Source: Thozetella sp. PMI_491 (taxonomy: Eukaryota; Ascomycota; Sordariomycetes; Chaetosphaeriales; Chaetosphaeriaceae). Taken from it: 64,000 nucleotides of DNA. Within the stretch, counting starts at the first letter, position 1, and each line of letters starts with the position of its first letter. The notes beneath the pieces are model-generated. The model searched no databases, was not told the origin of the DNA, and saw only the letters and a list, made by a program, of their open reading frames with translations. Location of the stretch: positions 372,001 through 436,000 of the forward strand of contig MU270067.1 in assembly GCA_021432635.1 (NCBI GenBank). The letters are read 5' to 3'. Made by a program: the position numbers and the translations under genes. Positions 26,485 through 58,714 of this stretch are shown here, piece after piece.

Positions 26485-29400
26485 CTACCCCTCGAAGTGA
26501 AACCTAGTCGCTTCAAGCTGGCCGAGGCCATCTCTCGGCGCCACATATCTCCTGCGGTAGGTGTTTGTGAAGTCTTGGAGAGTGACACGCACCTGCCTCA
26601 GACCGGAGGGATCGGAGCCTTGCAGGCGCTCCTTGATCTTCACCATGAGGCGACTGGCTTCCACCTGAGTCACGGTCCCCTCTGGGAGCATGTGAATGGT
26701 CCTCTCAACCCATTGCGCCGTCTGCTCCGGGAGGAGCTGGAACATACCGAGCAGCACGCCGCTACCGTCTGCGAAGCAGTCCCGTGGGAAGGTAATCATC
26801 ATGCCGGCCATGGTCTGCTTGATTAGCGCCTCCCCGTGGGTCATTAGAAGCTGTCTGATAATCTGACGGATTTGTTCGCCGTTCGGTCCTAGATTTGTTG
26901 AAGAACCCGCCGGGTTGTCACCACCATAGCTGAGCAGGTCTCTGATATAATGAAGCGTCGCTGAGAGCGGCTCTTGCTGTTCCAACGCCAAGGCCGATAT
27001 GGCGGCCTGGAAGATGGGGGTGAATAGTGGCGAGGGCACAATCTTGTGGGGATAGTAAAGCAAAGCATCGATGAGAAGTCGGAAGAAATCCTCAATGACG
27101 TCGGGGAGATCCATCGGGGGTATGTCGCTCATGATGCGAAGTGTCGTAGTCGCTTGCGCCTCAAAGAACGCATAGATGTTGTCCGAGGTACTCTCGCTCA
27201 CATGTTCGCGGTCGTCGGAGAACTCGCGAATGATCGCGCTGGTAGCCCATAGGAAGCAGCCCTGCTTCGAAGCAGAGAATCCTTCGGCAAGTTTGTTCGC
27301 CATTTCGGCCAAGACCGGTGTAATACCTGTCCGGTACGAGATGACCATGGCCCTCCAGAAACGGCAGATTCGCTCGCAGATGGGCACAAAGCTGACGAAG
27401 CTGTCCAGAACTTTGGAGAAGATAGGGAACACCTCCTGCCAGTACTTCACCGCCGGGTTCTCTTGTCCATCTGGCACATTCGGTGCGACAATCTTTACAA
27501 AGGTGGTGATGAGCTGGATGTGGTCTGTTGGAATGTGTTAGCTCAGGTCTCTCCGGGTCAATGTTGTCGTCTCTTACCAGCCAGAGCATATTTGCCAGGA
27601 TCGTTGGTGGCATTGTTCGCCTTGGTCATCAGCCTCTGCACCAGCGGGTCGCAGTATAACTTCAGAAGCTTGTACGTGTCCTCTGGCTTCTGCACGGCGA
27701 CCACGTTGGCAACACCCTCCGTCATCTCCTCCTGGCTAGGTTCGGGAAGCCTGTCAAGGATCTGGTCGTAGAAAGCCTGCAGCTCCAAAACCTGCTCGCC
27801 CAACAGGCGCCTGCAGTCGTGACCGAAGTACTTAATCGCCTGGGCGGCAGCCCTGACGATTTCCTTTGAATCGGTCTGGAAGGAAGAGACGATGTAGTTA
27901 AACTGCGGGGTGAGGAACTCCGGGTGCTCCGCCGTCCATTCAGTGTAGCGACCTATCACCATGATGGCAGCAAAGCGCAGCTTCTCATGAGGCGGGATTT
28001 GCACGAGGAGAGGCATAATCTGGGGGAGGACCACGCTCTCGTCGTTTTCAACCATCCGGCCCATGGCCCTCATTGAGAAGAGCGGCGCCTCCAGCGACTG
28101 CCAGTGAGGCACCGAGGTGGCGCTCGCCTGGCCAGCGTACTTCTGCATCCAAGCCTGGATGGCCTCTAGCACCTTTGTTAGGCAGGCGGCAGTACCCATG
28201 ACCTCGCATGCATCTTTCAATGTGTCGCCGATATGGTGGCGGAATTCGCGGAACTTCTCCTCCTGCTCGCGATCGCCGTCGAACAGATCCAGTTCGTTGT
28301 TGTTGTTAGACTCCGGATACTCCAGCAGCCTAAAGAAGACATCAACGAGCTTCGAGTAGACGTCTACCAATTGCAGCCGGGCCTGGATGTACTTCTCCAA
28401 GACAATGTACTGCTTTAGCTCGTACCAAAAGCCGAACGTGTACTCGACCACGTCGCGATCCTGGTCTCGAGCTACGCACTCGAGGAGAGCATCGACGAGG
28501 CCTCCAAAGTGTTGCGGCTCGCGAGCAATCGCAATCACCCAAGCATCTCCTGCATCCGCAAACACCCGAGTGAGAGCTTTGAACGACTCGATATCCTCAT
28601 CGTCGACCACCTTTTTGATGTAGGGCCGGAGCTCAATAATTCGGGGAAGGAGAACCTGGATGGTCTCGATATTGTCATCCACATCCCTCGTCTCTCTGCA
28701 TATTGTACCGAGACATTCTGATGCAGCCTGAAGGGACTCGTTGTTGGTCATGCCGTTCATGACGACGTTAAAGAGTGGCGAGTTCACGATGGTGGATACC
28801 GGAACCTCACGCAGCCACGAGGTGATGCAGTCGAATAGCTGGGGATTCACCGCGGCGGCAGCTAAGAAAAACACGGTTAGAATCGGCATCTTGACCCTAT
28901 GAGCATCGGTAACCCACCGGATGACTGAGCGTAATTGATGAGTAGCTGCACGACCTGGTCGGCGTTGTCGGCTAGCAATTCCGATGTTCTCTGCGCAAGC
29001 TCCTCTTCCTAACACGAGAGAATTAGACACTGATCCCGGCTGACGATCCAAAAAATACGGAATGCCGGGTTGGGTGTGAGGCGAGTTCGTGGTGTTTCGA
29101 TCGACATACAGACAAGGTGATTTTGCGGCCTTCCGTGACCTCCTCTGGGAGGACTCGGAGGAAGTCTAGGATGCAGGCGTGGCTAGCGACGTCGTCTCCG
29201 AGGGCAGACACAACGGTCGGCAGTACATCCTTCCAGGACCTCATCTGGATCGCGAGTATCGCCAAGCATACACAGAGCTGGACTCGCACGGGCTTGGGGC
29301 CAGGTGCGAAGCGCTTCAGCAGCACCAGAATTTGGTTACGCAGAGCTGGCAGATCAGCCTCGGGGACCTGTGTCGCCAGGTCATACGTGATCTGTTGACT

Positions 29401-30431: not shown

Positions 30432-31106
30432 ATGACTGGCCGAGGCGGCGGTGGAGGCAGGCGCGTCCTTCTTCCTCCTGTACGTGTGCCACAGCGCAGA
30501 GCTGGCTCGATGACGCGACCTGAAGGCTAACGGCGCTTAGATCAACTTCATTTTCAAGTGTCTTCAGTATGTGCTTCACATCCCAGCCTACACGGCTCCT
30601 CAGATCCTTTTTCTGCGGCTCCCGCTCGGCACGCGGGCGAGAGGCTAACACAGCACAGGCAGCACTCGACGGTCCAGGTTTGGCTCTATGAGCAGCTCGA
30701 GATCCGTATCGAAGGGAAGATCAGGGTGAGTGACTCCTTGGACCGCGGTCTGGTCAACATCTACTAACAAGCGAACAGGGCTGTAAGTCTCTCGGCAAGG
30801 TTGTGTCTAAATAGACCCTACTGACCCAGCATAGTCGATGAGTTCATGAACCTTGTTATCGATGATGTATGTTTCCCCGCCCAGCTCTGACTCCGTTGGG
30901 GGCTCGCTGACCGCGATATGTGTGCAGGCCGTGGAGATTCGGCAGATTACCAAGACAAACGACAAAGAAACCCGGAGATCTTTAGGTACGAGACCTCCTC
31001 ACGTGTTGAACCTCCCCCTCACCCTTTGATCGTCGCTGACCAAGTTGCAGGGCAAATTCTGTTGAAAGGTGATAACGTGTCTCTGATCCAGAGCCTGTCG
31101 GGTTGA
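30432..31106 (+). CDS. sme1: Small nuclear ribonucleoprotein E (SmE), core Sm protein
   Basis: One of seven Sm proteins forming the ring on the Sm site of U1, U2, U4 and U5 snRNAs. Seven exons give 96 residues: 30432-30479, 30541-30566, 30659-30725, 30779-30782, 30835-30866, 30928-30985 and 31051-31106. The protein starts M-T-G-R-G-G-G-G-G-R-R and continues with I-N-F-I-F-K. Sm1 has V-Q-V-W-L-Y-E-Q and R-I-E-G-K-I-R-G-F-D-E-F-M-N-L-V. Sm2 has G-Q-I-L-L-K-G-D-N-V-S-L-I-Q. The fourth exon is just GGCT, supplying Gly and the first base of Phe in the conserved G-F-D-E; without it the frame is lost. Six introns in a 291-nt coding sequence is dense, but all are GT-AG with good branch points (for example CTACTAAC at 30761). 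Divergent from mtr10; tail to tail with the next gene, 157 bp apart. Confidence 0.95.
30779..30782 (+). other. sme1: Four-nucleotide microexon of sme1 (GGCT)
   Basis: Flanked by a 53-nt intron (30726-30778; GTGAGT...CTACTAAC...ACAG) and a 52-nt intron (30783-30834; GTAAGT...CTACTGAC...ATAG). Joining the neighbouring exons directly gives AGG-TCG, shifting the frame; reading through the first intron meets TAA at 30766. Only inclusion of GGCT gives the conserved R-G-F-D-E-F-M-N of Sm proteins. Confidence 0.88.
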
Positions 31107-31263: not shown

Positions 31264-32104
31264 CTATTTCGTTGCGGGGGGCGTTTTGATCGCGCCATTG
31301 CCGAGGATGAGACCGTCTAGGCCTTGATCCAGGGGACCAACAGGTACCTCACCCTCAGATGGAGACGATAGGAACTGCTCAGACAGAGCTAAGCCATACA
31401 ATAGTACAGGACGACCCTTGGCTCTCGATGCCTCTTTTTCGTTGTGGCGGTTGATGAAGTAGTCGTAAAAGCCCTTACCGTGGCCGAGGCGCCGGATGGA
31501 TCCGTCGGTCGGATGAATGTCGAAGGCGACGCCAGGCATGAGTATGAGGTCCAGCGCCGCCTGTTCGGAGTGGTGTGCATCGGGTCCTCCCAGGATCCGT
31601 TGCCGTTCGTGCACTGTGGCGGGATCAATGCTCGGGATGCCCCAAGAATCTCGTTTCAGAGATTCATAGTCCTGGAGATTCTTTAACCGCACCATGTCCA
31701 TAACCCTGGCGGGGACGTCCGCGGACGGCGGCAGAGGGTTTCTATGCAGATAGGGCACAAAGACATGCTTGCCGGACTCTAGGGCATGGTGGACGATAGC
31801 ATCTGTCTGTATCTCCCCAGAGGGCATGGACAGGAACACGCTCACGCTTCTGGCCTCGAGGTAGGGCGGAAACTCCCGGAGGGTGTTGAGTACGACAGCA
31901 CCTGCAAGGGGGCAGCTCTCAGCAGCTGCACATGAGAATCGAATGACACGTGCAGGTGGGATCTATTGTGCAACGCCTACTTTGTGATAACGCCGAGTCA
32001 TGGGCCACGGCGCCAAGGCGCTGCTTCATGACGGCGCGGAGCTGCTGCTTAGCCGCAGAGAGAGAGGCCATCTGGAACTGCTCCTCCACCTGGCTGGGGG
32101 GCAT
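31264..32104 (-). CDS. fau1: 5-formyltetrahydrofolate cyclo-ligase (MTHFS, FAU1-type)
   Basis: Converts 5-formyl-THF to 5,10-methenyl-THF with ATP, returning folinic acid to one-carbon metabolism; cytosolic or mitochondrial in fungi. Exons 32104-31981 and 31901-31264 on the minus strand give 253 residues. The family signatures are clear: A-A-K-Q-Q-L-R near the N-terminus, V-F-L-S-M-P-S-G-E-I-Q-T substrate region, D-L-I-L-M-P-G-V-A-F-D, and the ATP-binding loop R-R-L-G-H-G-K-G-F-Y-D-Y. The junction codon (A + GT, Ser) keeps phase. Start: the first ATG is at 32104, but Met12 at 32071 (M-A-S-L-S-A-A-K) matches the usual family start and has G at +4, so the first 11 residues may be leader. The 3' end lies 157 bp from sme1, so transcripts may overlap. 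Confidence 0.93.
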
Positions 32105-44806: not shown

Positions 44807-46272
44807 ATGGGTACCTGTATGAGCACGAACAGCGAGGAGACGGAGCAGAAGAAGAGGAGCCAGAAGATCGACAAGGACCTCGAGGAGGACTCGAAGCGGC
44901 TGCGGCGAGAATGCAAGATCCTGCTGCTCGGTGCGTTCTTGCTCCGGAATTGATGAATGATTAACCCCCAACCGCGCGCCGTGTGCTGACCCCCCTTCGC
45001 TCGCAGGCTCCGGCGAGAGCGGAAAGTCGACAATCGTCAAGCAGATGAAGATTATCCATCTGAAGGGATACTCGGATGACGAATTGTACAATTACAGACC
45101 AACCGTCTTCAAGAACCTGATCGAGTGCGCCAAGGCCGTTATCCTCGCCATGCGACAGTTCGAGCTTGAGCCATCCATCGAAGCGAACCGCGCCTACTGC
45201 GACTTCTTGGTCGAGTACACGGTCGAGCCCGGCCCACAAGCGCAGATCGATCCCAGGGTCGGCGAGGCCGTGCAGTCAATATGGAGCGATCCCGTCAAGG
45301 ACCAGTTGATGGACAGGCAGACCGAGTTCTACCTCATGGACTCTGCTGAATAGTGCGTACCTCTCGGCTGCGCTTCCCACCTCCGGGGGGTGCCCAACCC
45401 AGGGCCCCTTGACCCGCGCTAACCATTCCACAGCTTCTTCCAGGAGGCCAGCCGGATCACCGACCCCAACTACCTTCCAAACGAAATGGACGTGCTACGC
45501 GCCAGAACCAAGACGACGGGTATCTACGAGACGAGATTCCAGATGGGCCAGCTCAGCATCCAGTAAGTCGCCGCTGTGGCGAAACCTCCCCCCCCCCCCC
45601 CCCATTGAACCCCCTCTCCGAGAGCCGAGTCTGACGCTGCGTCAGCATGTTTGACGTGGGTGGGCAGAGAAGCGAGCGTAAAAAGTGGATTCACTGCTTT
45701 GAGAACGTGACCTCCATCATCTTCTGCGTTGCCTTGAGCGAGTACGACCAGGTGTTGCTCGAAGAGAGCAGCCAGGTATGACTAAAATCCACCCCGCCGC
45801 CCAGGCCACGAAATACGGTGGCGTGCTGACCTTGGCGGACAGAATCGCATGATGGAGAGCTTACTCCTATTCGACTCGGTCGTCAACTCGAGATGGTTCA
45901 TGAGGACTAGCATCATTCTGTTCCTCAATAAGGTGGACATCTTTAAGCAGAAGCTGGGCCGTTCGCCGCTGGGCAACTACTTCCCCGACTACTCTGGGGG
46001 TAACGATGTGAACAAGGCTGCCAAGTACCTCCTCTGGAGGTTTAACCAAGTGAACAGAGCACATCTCAACCTATATCCCCAGTAAGTCTCTTCCACCTTC
46101 CCTTCCCCGTCTCCCGCGCCCAGCGCAAGGGATAGCCCCGGGACAGCCAGCTGACCCCTGTCGCCTGAACAGCCTGACCCAAGCCACCGACACGTCCAAC
46201 ATCCGCCTCGTGTTTGCTGCGGTGAAAGAGACGATTCTCAACAACGCCCTGAAGGATTCCGGCATTCTTTGA
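44807..46272 (+). CDS. gna-3: Heterotrimeric G-protein alpha subunit, group III (GNA-3 type)
   Basis: GTPase that in Neurospora supports adenylyl cyclase activity, nutrient sensing and control of conidiation. Six exons (44807-44930, 45007-45352, 45434-45562, 45646-45775, 45843-46081, 46173-46272) give 355 residues. M-G-T-C-M-S carries the Gly2 myristoylation and Cys4 palmitoylation positions. G1 is G-S-G-E-S-G-K-S-T (42-50); switch I has [13 protein letters not shown]3 is D-V-G-G-Q with catalytic Gln207; G4 is N-K-V-D. G5 reads T-Q-A-T-D-T where most G-alphas have T-C-A-x-D-T. The C-terminus D-S-G-I-L lacks the Cys four from the end that marks Gi-like subunits; this separates it from the GNA-1 class. 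Intron 3 carries a 16-C tract (45588-45603). ATG context is CACC-ATG-G, close to ideal. Length agrees with the 356-residue Neurospora protein. Confidence 0.96.
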
Positions 46273-50011: not shown

Positions 50012-53000
50012 ATGACGACTGAACGCATTCCCCTCAGGGAGCGACGGCCGTCGACCGGGGCTCCCCTTGTCGACATTCAGGGCTCTGTCGGGCCTGCTGG
50101 CATCTCCCGCCCCAAGCACAAGCGTACCTTCACCGGCTTTGGCGCCGGTGATATCAAGAGCGTCGAAGGTGAGTTTGTCTACCTATCTACCCATCCTCCC
50201 TGATGCAATTGGGCCCGAGAAAGTGCGTTATTCAGCCAGAGCTTCCGGATGGTGCGGGCGGAGCTGGATTGAGGGGTTCATGATAAGCGCCGATAAGGTG
50301 GGGTGAGCCCATGCCTGTACAGCCAGCTAACGAGCTTCTGCCCGCCAGCTTCGATTCCTGAGCCGCAGAGGGCGGCATGGACCAAGCACCAGGTCAATGG
50401 CTTCCAGGACAAGGACGGTTTCGAGCAGGAAGTGGTTCGTCATGTCGAGACCACGCTGGCCCGTAGCATGTTCAACTGCGATGAAGTTGCCGCCTACTCA
50501 GCTACCAGTCTCGCCTTCCGCGACCGCCTCATTCTTGAGTGGAACCGAACCCAGCAGCGCCAGACATTCGCCGACACCAAGCGTGTCTACTACCTGAGTC
50601 TGGAATTCCTCATGGGACGAGCGCTAGACAATGCTATGCTGAACATTGGGCAGAAGGATGTGGCCAAGTGTGAGTGCTTTTGCGATGGATCAAATCCCCC
50701 ACCCGAACCCCAACCATGTGACCGCTAGGCTAACCGCTTATACGCCGCTCTGCAGCCGGTCTTGCCGACTTGGGCTTCCGAATTGAGGACATCATTTCCC
50801 AGGAGCATGATGCCGCGTTGGGAAACGGTGGTCTTGGTCGCCTGGCGGCCTGCTTCCTCGACAGTCTCGCGTCGCTGGACTTCCCTGCCTGGGGCTACGG
50901 CTTGCGCTACCGGTACGGTATCTTCAAACAGGAGATCATTGACGGCTACCAGGTTGAGGTGCCTGACTACTGGCTTGACTTCAACCCCTGGGAGTTCCCT
51001 AGGCATGATGTCACGGTTGACATCCAGTTCTACGGACAGGTCAACAAATCGACCGACGGCTCCGGCAGGACCGTCGCTACATGGGACGGCGGTGAGCACG
51101 TCACTGCCGTAGCCTACGACGTACCGATCCCGGGCTACGCCACTCCCTCCACCAACAACTTGAGGCTGTGGTCCAGCAAGGCCGCCAGCGGCGAGTTCGA
51201 CTTCCAAAAGTTCAACAGCGGCGAGTACGAGAGCTCGGTCGCCGACCAACAGCGGGCTGAGACCATCAGCGCTGTGCTGTACCCCAACGACAACCTTGAG
51301 CGCGGCAAGGAGCTGCGCTTGAAGCAGCAATACTTCTGGGTCGCCGCCTCGCTCTACGACATTGTCCGCCGTTTCAAGAAGTCCAAGAGGGCTTGGAAGG
51401 AGTTCCCCGACCAGGTAGCCATCCAGCTGAACGATACCCACCCGACGCTCGCCATTGTCGAGCTCCAGCGCATCCTTGTCGACTTGGAGGGCCTCGAATG
51501 GGATGAGGCTTGGTCCATTGTCACCGAGACTTTTGGATACACCAACCACACCGTGCTGCCTGAGGCGCTCGAAAAGTGGCCCGTCGGCCTGGTCCAGCAC
51601 CTGCTCCCGCGTCACCTCCAGATCATCTACGACATCAACCTGTTTTTCCTCCAGGGCGTGGAGCGAGCCTTCCCCAACGACCGCGATCTCCTAAGCCGAG
51701 TCTCTATCATCGAAGAGTCCCAGCCCAAAATGGTCCGCATGGCGTTCCTCGCCATTGTCGGCTCGCACAAGGTCAACGGCGTCGCCGAGTTGCACTCGGA
51801 CCTCATCAAGACCACTATCTTCAAGGACTTCGTGACCATCTTCGGCCCGGACAAGTTCGCTAACGTGACCAACGGTATCACGCCGCGCCGCTGGCTCCAC
51901 CAGGCCAACCCCCGCCTCTCAGAACTGATCGCTAGCAAGGTGGGCAGCCACGATTTCCTCAAGGACCTCACACTCCTCAACAAGGTCGAGCTCGCCCTTG
52001 ACGACAAGGAATTCCGCAAGGAGTGGGCCGAGATCAAGTATGCAAACAAGGTTCGTCTTGCCAAGCACATCAAGGCGTCGGCCGGCGTGACGGTCAACCC
52101 TGCCGCTCTCTTCGACGTCCAGGTGAAGCGTATCCACGAGTACAAACGCCAGCAACTAAACATCTTCGGCGTCATCCACCGCTACCTAACACTCAAGGCC
52201 ATGAAGCCCGAGGAGCGCAAGAAGGCCCTTCCTCGCGTCTCCATATTCGGTGGCAAAGCCGCGCCTGGATACTGGATGGCGAAGCAGATCATTCATCTGA
52301 TCAACAATGTGGGCGGAGTGGTCAACAACGACCCCGACATCGGCGACTTGCTCAAGGTTGTGTTCCTCGAAGACTACAACGTCAGCAAGGCTGAGATCAT
52401 TATCCCGGCATCCGACATCAGCGAGCACATTTCTACGGCCGGCACCGAGTAAGTTGACATGTATTTGCCGTGATACTACTATGAACACTCTGCTAATACC
52501 GCCTCGCAGAGCATCGGGCACTAGCAACATGAAGTTTGTCCTCAATGGAGGCTTGATCATTGGAACTTGCGATGGTGCCAACGTGAGTATCCCGTATAAA
52601 AGACCCCTTGGGAGCGGTTAGCTGAACATGTGCCTGTAGATTGAGATCACGCGTGAGATCGGCGAGAATAACATCTTCCTCTTTGGTAATCTTGCAGAAG
52701 ACGTGGAGGACCTGCGACACACTCACACGTATGGCACCCACTCGATCGACCCCGACCTTGCGAAGGTGTTCGAAGCGATCGAGAAGGACACGTTCGGTCC
52801 GTCCAACGACTTTGCTGCTGTCATTAGTGCAGTCCGCGACCACGGTGACTATTACCTAGTGTCGGATGACTTCCACAGCTACATCGAGACGCACGCGTTG
52901 GTCGACGAGGCCTACCGCAACCAGGACGAGTGGATCACCAAGACCATCACCAGTGTGGCCCGCATGGGTTTCTTCAGCTCGGATCGATGCATCAACGAGT

Positions 53001-57170: not shown

Positions 57171-58714
<1,544 letters not shown>

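Follow-up and report, generated by a model that had tools for sequence, protein, structure and literature searches.

The stretch of DNA analysed here (64,000 nucleotides, hereafter the window) is part of contig C53 in a genome assembly of 72,315,471 bases in 157 contigs. A 226-residue piece of the ribosomal protein uL3 of this genome has its best PDB matches in chains 7r81_E1 (458.4 bits), 8oo0_LB and 7olc_LB (451.2 bits each), with the other matches listed at 398.6 bits or less; as 7r81 is from Neurospora crassa and 7olc from Chaetomium thermophilum, the host is probably a filamentous ascomycete. At 30432–31106 on the + strand it carries a gene for the Sm protein SmE, composed of seven coding exons of 48, 26, 67, 4, 32, 58 and 56 nt, the last figure including the stop codon, and six introns of 61, 92, 53, 52, 61 and 65 nt. 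Exon 1 (30432–30479) opens with the ATG, and the joined translation aligns to PDB entry 9l5r_a from residue 1. It is followed by exon 2 (30541–30566), exon 3 (30659–30725), whose 3′ end GGG AAG ATC AGG encodes GKIR, the four-nucleotide exon 4 (30779–30782), exon 5 (30835–30866), exon 6 (30928–30985) and exon 7 (31051–31106), which ends in a TGA stop at 31104–31106. Upstream, on the − strand, lies a gene of the Transportin-3/Importin-13 family (26488–29165); human Transportin-3 imports SR splicing factors. The downstream, convergent neighbour (31267–31962, − strand) belongs to the 5-formyltetrahydrofolate cyclo-ligase family, and its frame ends ~160 nt from the SmE stop. Further + strand exons in the window encode a carbohydrate (glycogen) phosphorylase (50734–52449), a G-protein alpha subunit (44961–45350) and a protein kinase (57699–58223).

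The joined coding sequence specifies 96 amino acids, which match 9l5r_a over residues 1–96 (E = 1.3e-42) with 74% identity across 96 columns and match the Pfam LSM domain with 60.3 bits. The first nine PDB matches are all SmE (E = 1.3e-42 to 1.8e-12), with LSm5 next at 2.7e-6. From their entry codes, we take the matches after 9l5r_a to be the SmE proteins of S. pombe and human. A full-length match that is better than that to other Sm proteins identifies the gene as the orthologue of snRNP E. We found no second copy in the 72.3-Mb assembly, using searches that score the best candidates only: the DNA search returned one match, the gene itself, and the protein search returned four, all of them exons of this same gene. 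Viral contigs scanned for SmE yielded no relative among 22 pattern matches, and a four-sequence SmE alignment run against bacterial and archaeal genomes produced 270 pattern matches and 50 loci, all with archaeal names.

The fourth exon consists of GGCT, in which GGC encodes Gly48 and T opens the codon of Phe49. Intron 3 before it (30726–30778, 53 nt; residue 48 phase 0) has the donor AGG/GTGAGT, a CTAAC motif starting 15 nt before the intron end and the acceptor AACAG/G. Intron 4 behind it (30783–30834, 52 nt; residue 49 phase 1) has the donor GCT/GTAAGT, a CTGAC motif starting 14 nt before its end and the acceptor CATAG/T. The original prediction had placed GGCT between two such introns, each with its own donor, CTRAC motif and AG, and this arrangement and its coding assignment were borne out. 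As an internal exon of ≤30 nt with its own acceptor (AACAG) and donor (GTAAGT), GGCT falls within the definition of a microexon. Two of its signals are modest: the intron 3 acceptor scores 3.4 bits, at the low end of the training range (18 introns, 3.4–7.4), and the intron 4 donor is preceded by GCT, not by a CAG-like end.

Translation also agreed with the prediction that skipping GGCT shifts the frame, giving a product that ends in KIRSMSS, and that retention of the first flanking intron introduces a stop; retention of any one of the six introns gives a premature stop. The prediction erred in calling the sequence G-F-D-E universal in Sm proteins, as paralogues in the same genome read AYDS (LSm3), AEDN (SmD3), SIDS (SmF) and AFDK (SmB) at this place. 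Within SmE, Gly-Phe is present in all three reference sequences and in all five alignments displayed (the first five of eight), two of which are identical over the Gly-Phe stretch.

We enumerated all GT- or GC-to-AG introns of at least 30 nt within 30659–30866, taken as none, single or paired. This gave 2,656 arrangements (156 candidate introns, 2,499 pairs and no intron), of which 261 are open in frame. Scored against three SmE references, the GGCT model has the top protein score among these 261, 140.0, followed by three arrangements at 125.0; the references themselves score 141–148 against the reference set. Its splice-site score, 23.7, is the highest among the arrangements listed, under a model trained on 18 introns that were picked partly by the same consensus. 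The interior of 30726–30834 was also shuffled 20,000 times at the dinucleotide level, with the first and last 6 nt fixed, in a test designed after the case was seen and with a pattern derived from Gly-Phe and the frame. AG-GGNT-GT with at least 40 nt on both sides arose in 0.28% of shuffles, a GTRNG(T/C) donor in addition in 0.01%, and a CTRAY motif in both introns as well in none of the 20,000. The SmE gene almost certainly consists of seven coding exons, one of them 4 nt long. We put the probability that GGCT is a real coding microexon, included by default in the productive SmE mRNA, at about 92%.

One competitor is an arrangement that the original prediction had missed. The main donor of intron 3, GTGAGT, carries a second GT at +5 (GTGAGTGACT; the GT, at 30730–30731, of a weak donor GTGACT 4 nt beyond the main one), which can be joined to 30835 by removal of a single 105-nt intron (30730–30834). 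This adds GTGA, drops GGCT and keeps the frame, so that a 96-residue SmE results with Val48-Ile49 in place of Gly48-Phe49. Three junctions tell the outcomes apart: ATCAGG-GGCT-TCGATG with the microexon included, ATCAGG-TCGATG upon skipping with a frameshift, and ATCAGGGTGA-TCGATG for the +4 donor. The +4 donor product reads ATCAGGGTGATCGATG against ATCAGGGGCTTCGATG for the form that contains GGCT, and GGGTGATCGATG marks the +4 junction, in which GGCT is absent. Among the single-intron arrangements it ranks first, and its frame is open; its protein score is 125.0 against 140.0. Residues 48–49 are Ser-Ile in the paralogue SmF and Ser-Val in LSm6 and LSm2, and a GT at +5 belongs to the donor consensus, being present in 11 of the 18 listed paralogue introns. 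Against it, the combined splice-site score is 6.3 bits, of which the shared acceptor contributes 5.0, leaving ~1.3 bits for the donor, below all 18 training donors (4.7–10.4). The Val-Ile protein would also depart from the Gly-Phe of the three SmE references, and the GTAAGT donor, CTAAC and CTGAC would all have to be accidental. We consider it very unlikely as the main form and regard it as a minor product or a pitfall for aligners. It need not reflect any special design, since the donor consensus itself carries GT at +5 and can thereby offer an in-frame way out wherever a microexon of 4 nt follows. That the gene yields two full-length proteins, Gly-Phe with GGCT and Val-Ile through the +4 donor, is less probable still. 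If true, the microexon and the donor consensus (GT at +1 and +5) would form a frame-preserving pair, whereby weak splicing alters the composition of the Sm ring while sparing the mRNA.

A regulated switch was also weighed, in which a change in splicing capacity leads to skipping or retention, an early stop and nonsense-mediated decay, thereby tuning SmE. The early stops that follow from the skip and from each of the six retentions do make the gene sensitive to splicing faults, and autoregulation through a poison exon is known in the Sm family for SNRPB. Sensitivity to retention, however, is expected of intron-dense genes generally. The SNRPB scheme is negative feedback; if low spliceosome activity caused the skip, SmE would fall further, which is positive feedback and the opposite of homeostasis. 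No regulatory element is known at SmE from our search, which covered splice signals and an Rfam scan; the latter returned no RNA family at gathering score in the window. We hold the switch to be very improbable, and the idea raised in the original prediction, autoregulation of SmE through GGCT, found no support. The least probable of the readings is a stwintron, in which an inner intron interrupts a splice signal of an outer one and the whole of 30726–30834 is excised, GGCT included. A pair of neighbouring short introns separated by a minimal spacer does recall this arrangement, and stwintrons have been reported in filamentous ascomycetes. Here, introns 3 and 4 each carry their own complete signals, and removing all of 30726–30834 shifts the frame; we rejected the stwintron on both counts.

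If GGCT is spliced in as a microexon, introns 3 and 4 would each be recognised across the intron, from donor to branch point and AG, and not across the exon. With only 4 nt between the intron 3 acceptor and the intron 4 donor, sequential removal of the two introns is most likely. Whichever goes first, the neighbour that remains would be workable: exon 3+4 with 71 nt or exon 4+5 with 36 nt. The modelled paralogue introns (n = 18) measure 51–113 nt with a median of 66, placing the SmE introns of 52–53 nt at the short end. Four matches to FF domains, a domain type found in Prp40, which bridges across introns, lie at two places in the genome and mark candidate Prp40 genes. The assembly also holds four U6 snRNA copies above cut-off (contigs C39, C49 and C9), two of them ~1.3 kb apart. 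In C. elegans, microexons have been proposed to rely on intron definition, with PRP-40 as a bridging factor for small exons, and a short flanking intron relieved the PRP-40 dependence of one microexon (PMC8378409). A human MPC1 minigene splices even with its exon cut to 0 bp, as long as both splice sites are intact (PMC9929638). Taken together, these reports indicate that neither the length nor the frame of GGCT is paradoxical. The original prediction had argued that 4 nt is at or below what exon definition can recognise, leaving intron definition or sequential splicing as the only routes. Intron definition is indeed natural for introns of 52–53 nt; the implied length limit was weakened, as MPC1 and a Fusarium exon described below show that 4 nt is no hard limit.

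To place the two introns within the family, we compared them with the other Sm and LSm genes of the same genome. All 14 proteins sought (LSm1–8, SmB, D1, D2, D3, F and G) were recognised by eye from peptides using family motifs, SmG and LSm3 also by protein search. Models were built by hand and cover only introns between recognised exons. The top-scored intron was taken, except for the second intron of SmD3, where one scoring 15.7 was chosen over one scoring 16 for the sake of the protein; ties in SmF and SmD2 were settled by eye, SmD2 being the least certain. The first LSm5 intron entered the training set in its top-scored 82-nt form, which has no branch-point motif, while an alternative of 73 nt retains three further expected residues. 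LSm5 (locus L069, 1350–1607, contig C39) has two small exons of ~30 (or 39) and 28 nt between short introns; small exons thus recur in the Sm/LSm family of this genome, with the first-intron acceptor of LSm5 uncertain. The SmB gene (locus L068, 1442–1500, contig C21) has an apparent GC-AG intron of 59 nt (AAG/GCATGT, CTAAC, TATAG/CAT), which was found by eye and excluded from training.

In the 17-residue core around G44–N54 (SmE numbers), 10 of the 14 paralogues have an intron; LSm2, LSm4, SmD1 and SmD2 have none. SmE intron 3 coincides in position and phase with the intron of LSm3 (residue 48 phase 0), and SmE intron 4 with that of SmD3 (residue 49 phase 1). The SmF intron falls between them at 48 phase 2, and the remaining paralogue introns are elsewhere. 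The chance that two randomly placed SmE introns would both hit occupied sites is ~0.035 (10 of 51 sites) or 0.048 (7 of 30, in the dense part), so the coincidence is suggestive, not proof. Intron positions in Sm/Lsm genes are described as unusually conserved by Veretnik and others, in whose survey Lsm3 has an intron position in common with SmE, as does Lsm5 in a different phase, and LSm4 is the partner of SmD3 (PMC2650416). An intron position common to Lsm3 and SmE had thus been published before, in passages that name no microexon or residue (PMC2650416). We propose that SmE has both positions occupied that LSm3 and SmD3 use singly, and that GGCT is the coding sequence left between them. In the simplest history intron 3 would be old, with intron 4 either gained or inherited at a distance of 4 nt. 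An old origin of intron 4 is opposed by LSm4, the partner of SmD3, which has no core intron in this genome, and a simple old origin also by LSm5, the partner of SmE, whose core intron lies at residue 54 phase 1 and not at 48–49.

The comparison with paralogues offers a testable origin for the microexon, as a remnant between two intron positions that occur singly in sister Sm/LSm genes. The locus would further provide a natural test of the exon-length floor for fungal intron definition, inside a core spliceosome gene. It also carries a warning for annotation: GGCT is likely to be overlooked by gene finders, whose models may show either a frameshift or the Val-Ile SmE.

Fungi, plants and humans are already known to have exons of 1–6 nt (PMC12940212, PMC1184071, PMC8831610, PMC9929638), and in 2024 knowledge of fungal microexons was called limited (PMC11121469). 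In a narrow search of the open-access literature we found no report of a microexon in SmE/SNRPE, which does not establish its absence in print. One close parallel is an exon of 1 nt in the CYP621A genes, which has read support in two Fusarium species and was aligned in 20 orthologues (PMC12940212). It shares with GGCT a filamentous ascomycete host, an ultra-short length, an essential role in the frame and a part in a conserved glycine codon, and differs in being 1 nt and not 4, in lying in a P450 gene and in having orthologue and read support, whereas GGCT is predicted from its sequence. The human MPC1 microexon is likewise 4 nt, no multiple of three and, as is probable for GGCT, constitutive; it has exon-defining elements in its proximal introns, while both SmE introns span only 52–53 nt (PMC9929638). 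In plants, microexons of 1 nt occur in APC11 and VPS55, and rice has one of 4 nt; these resemble GGCT in being tiny, within conserved coding regions and overlooked by annotation, and differ in their hosts and in the conservation and RNA evidence presented for them (PMC8831610). Small exons of Phanerochaete P450 genes, the shortest 6 bp, are similarly fungal, very short and accompanied by short introns, although from a basidiomycete and another gene family (PMC1184071). The Xlr2 microexon of Trichoderma, also in a filamentous ascomycete, is switch-like, being alternative and glucose-dependent with two isoforms, whereas inclusion of GGCT is probably constitutive (PMC11121469). Set beside these systems, the SmE microexon is real on the evidence of its sequence, ordinary in kind and mildly interesting in place.
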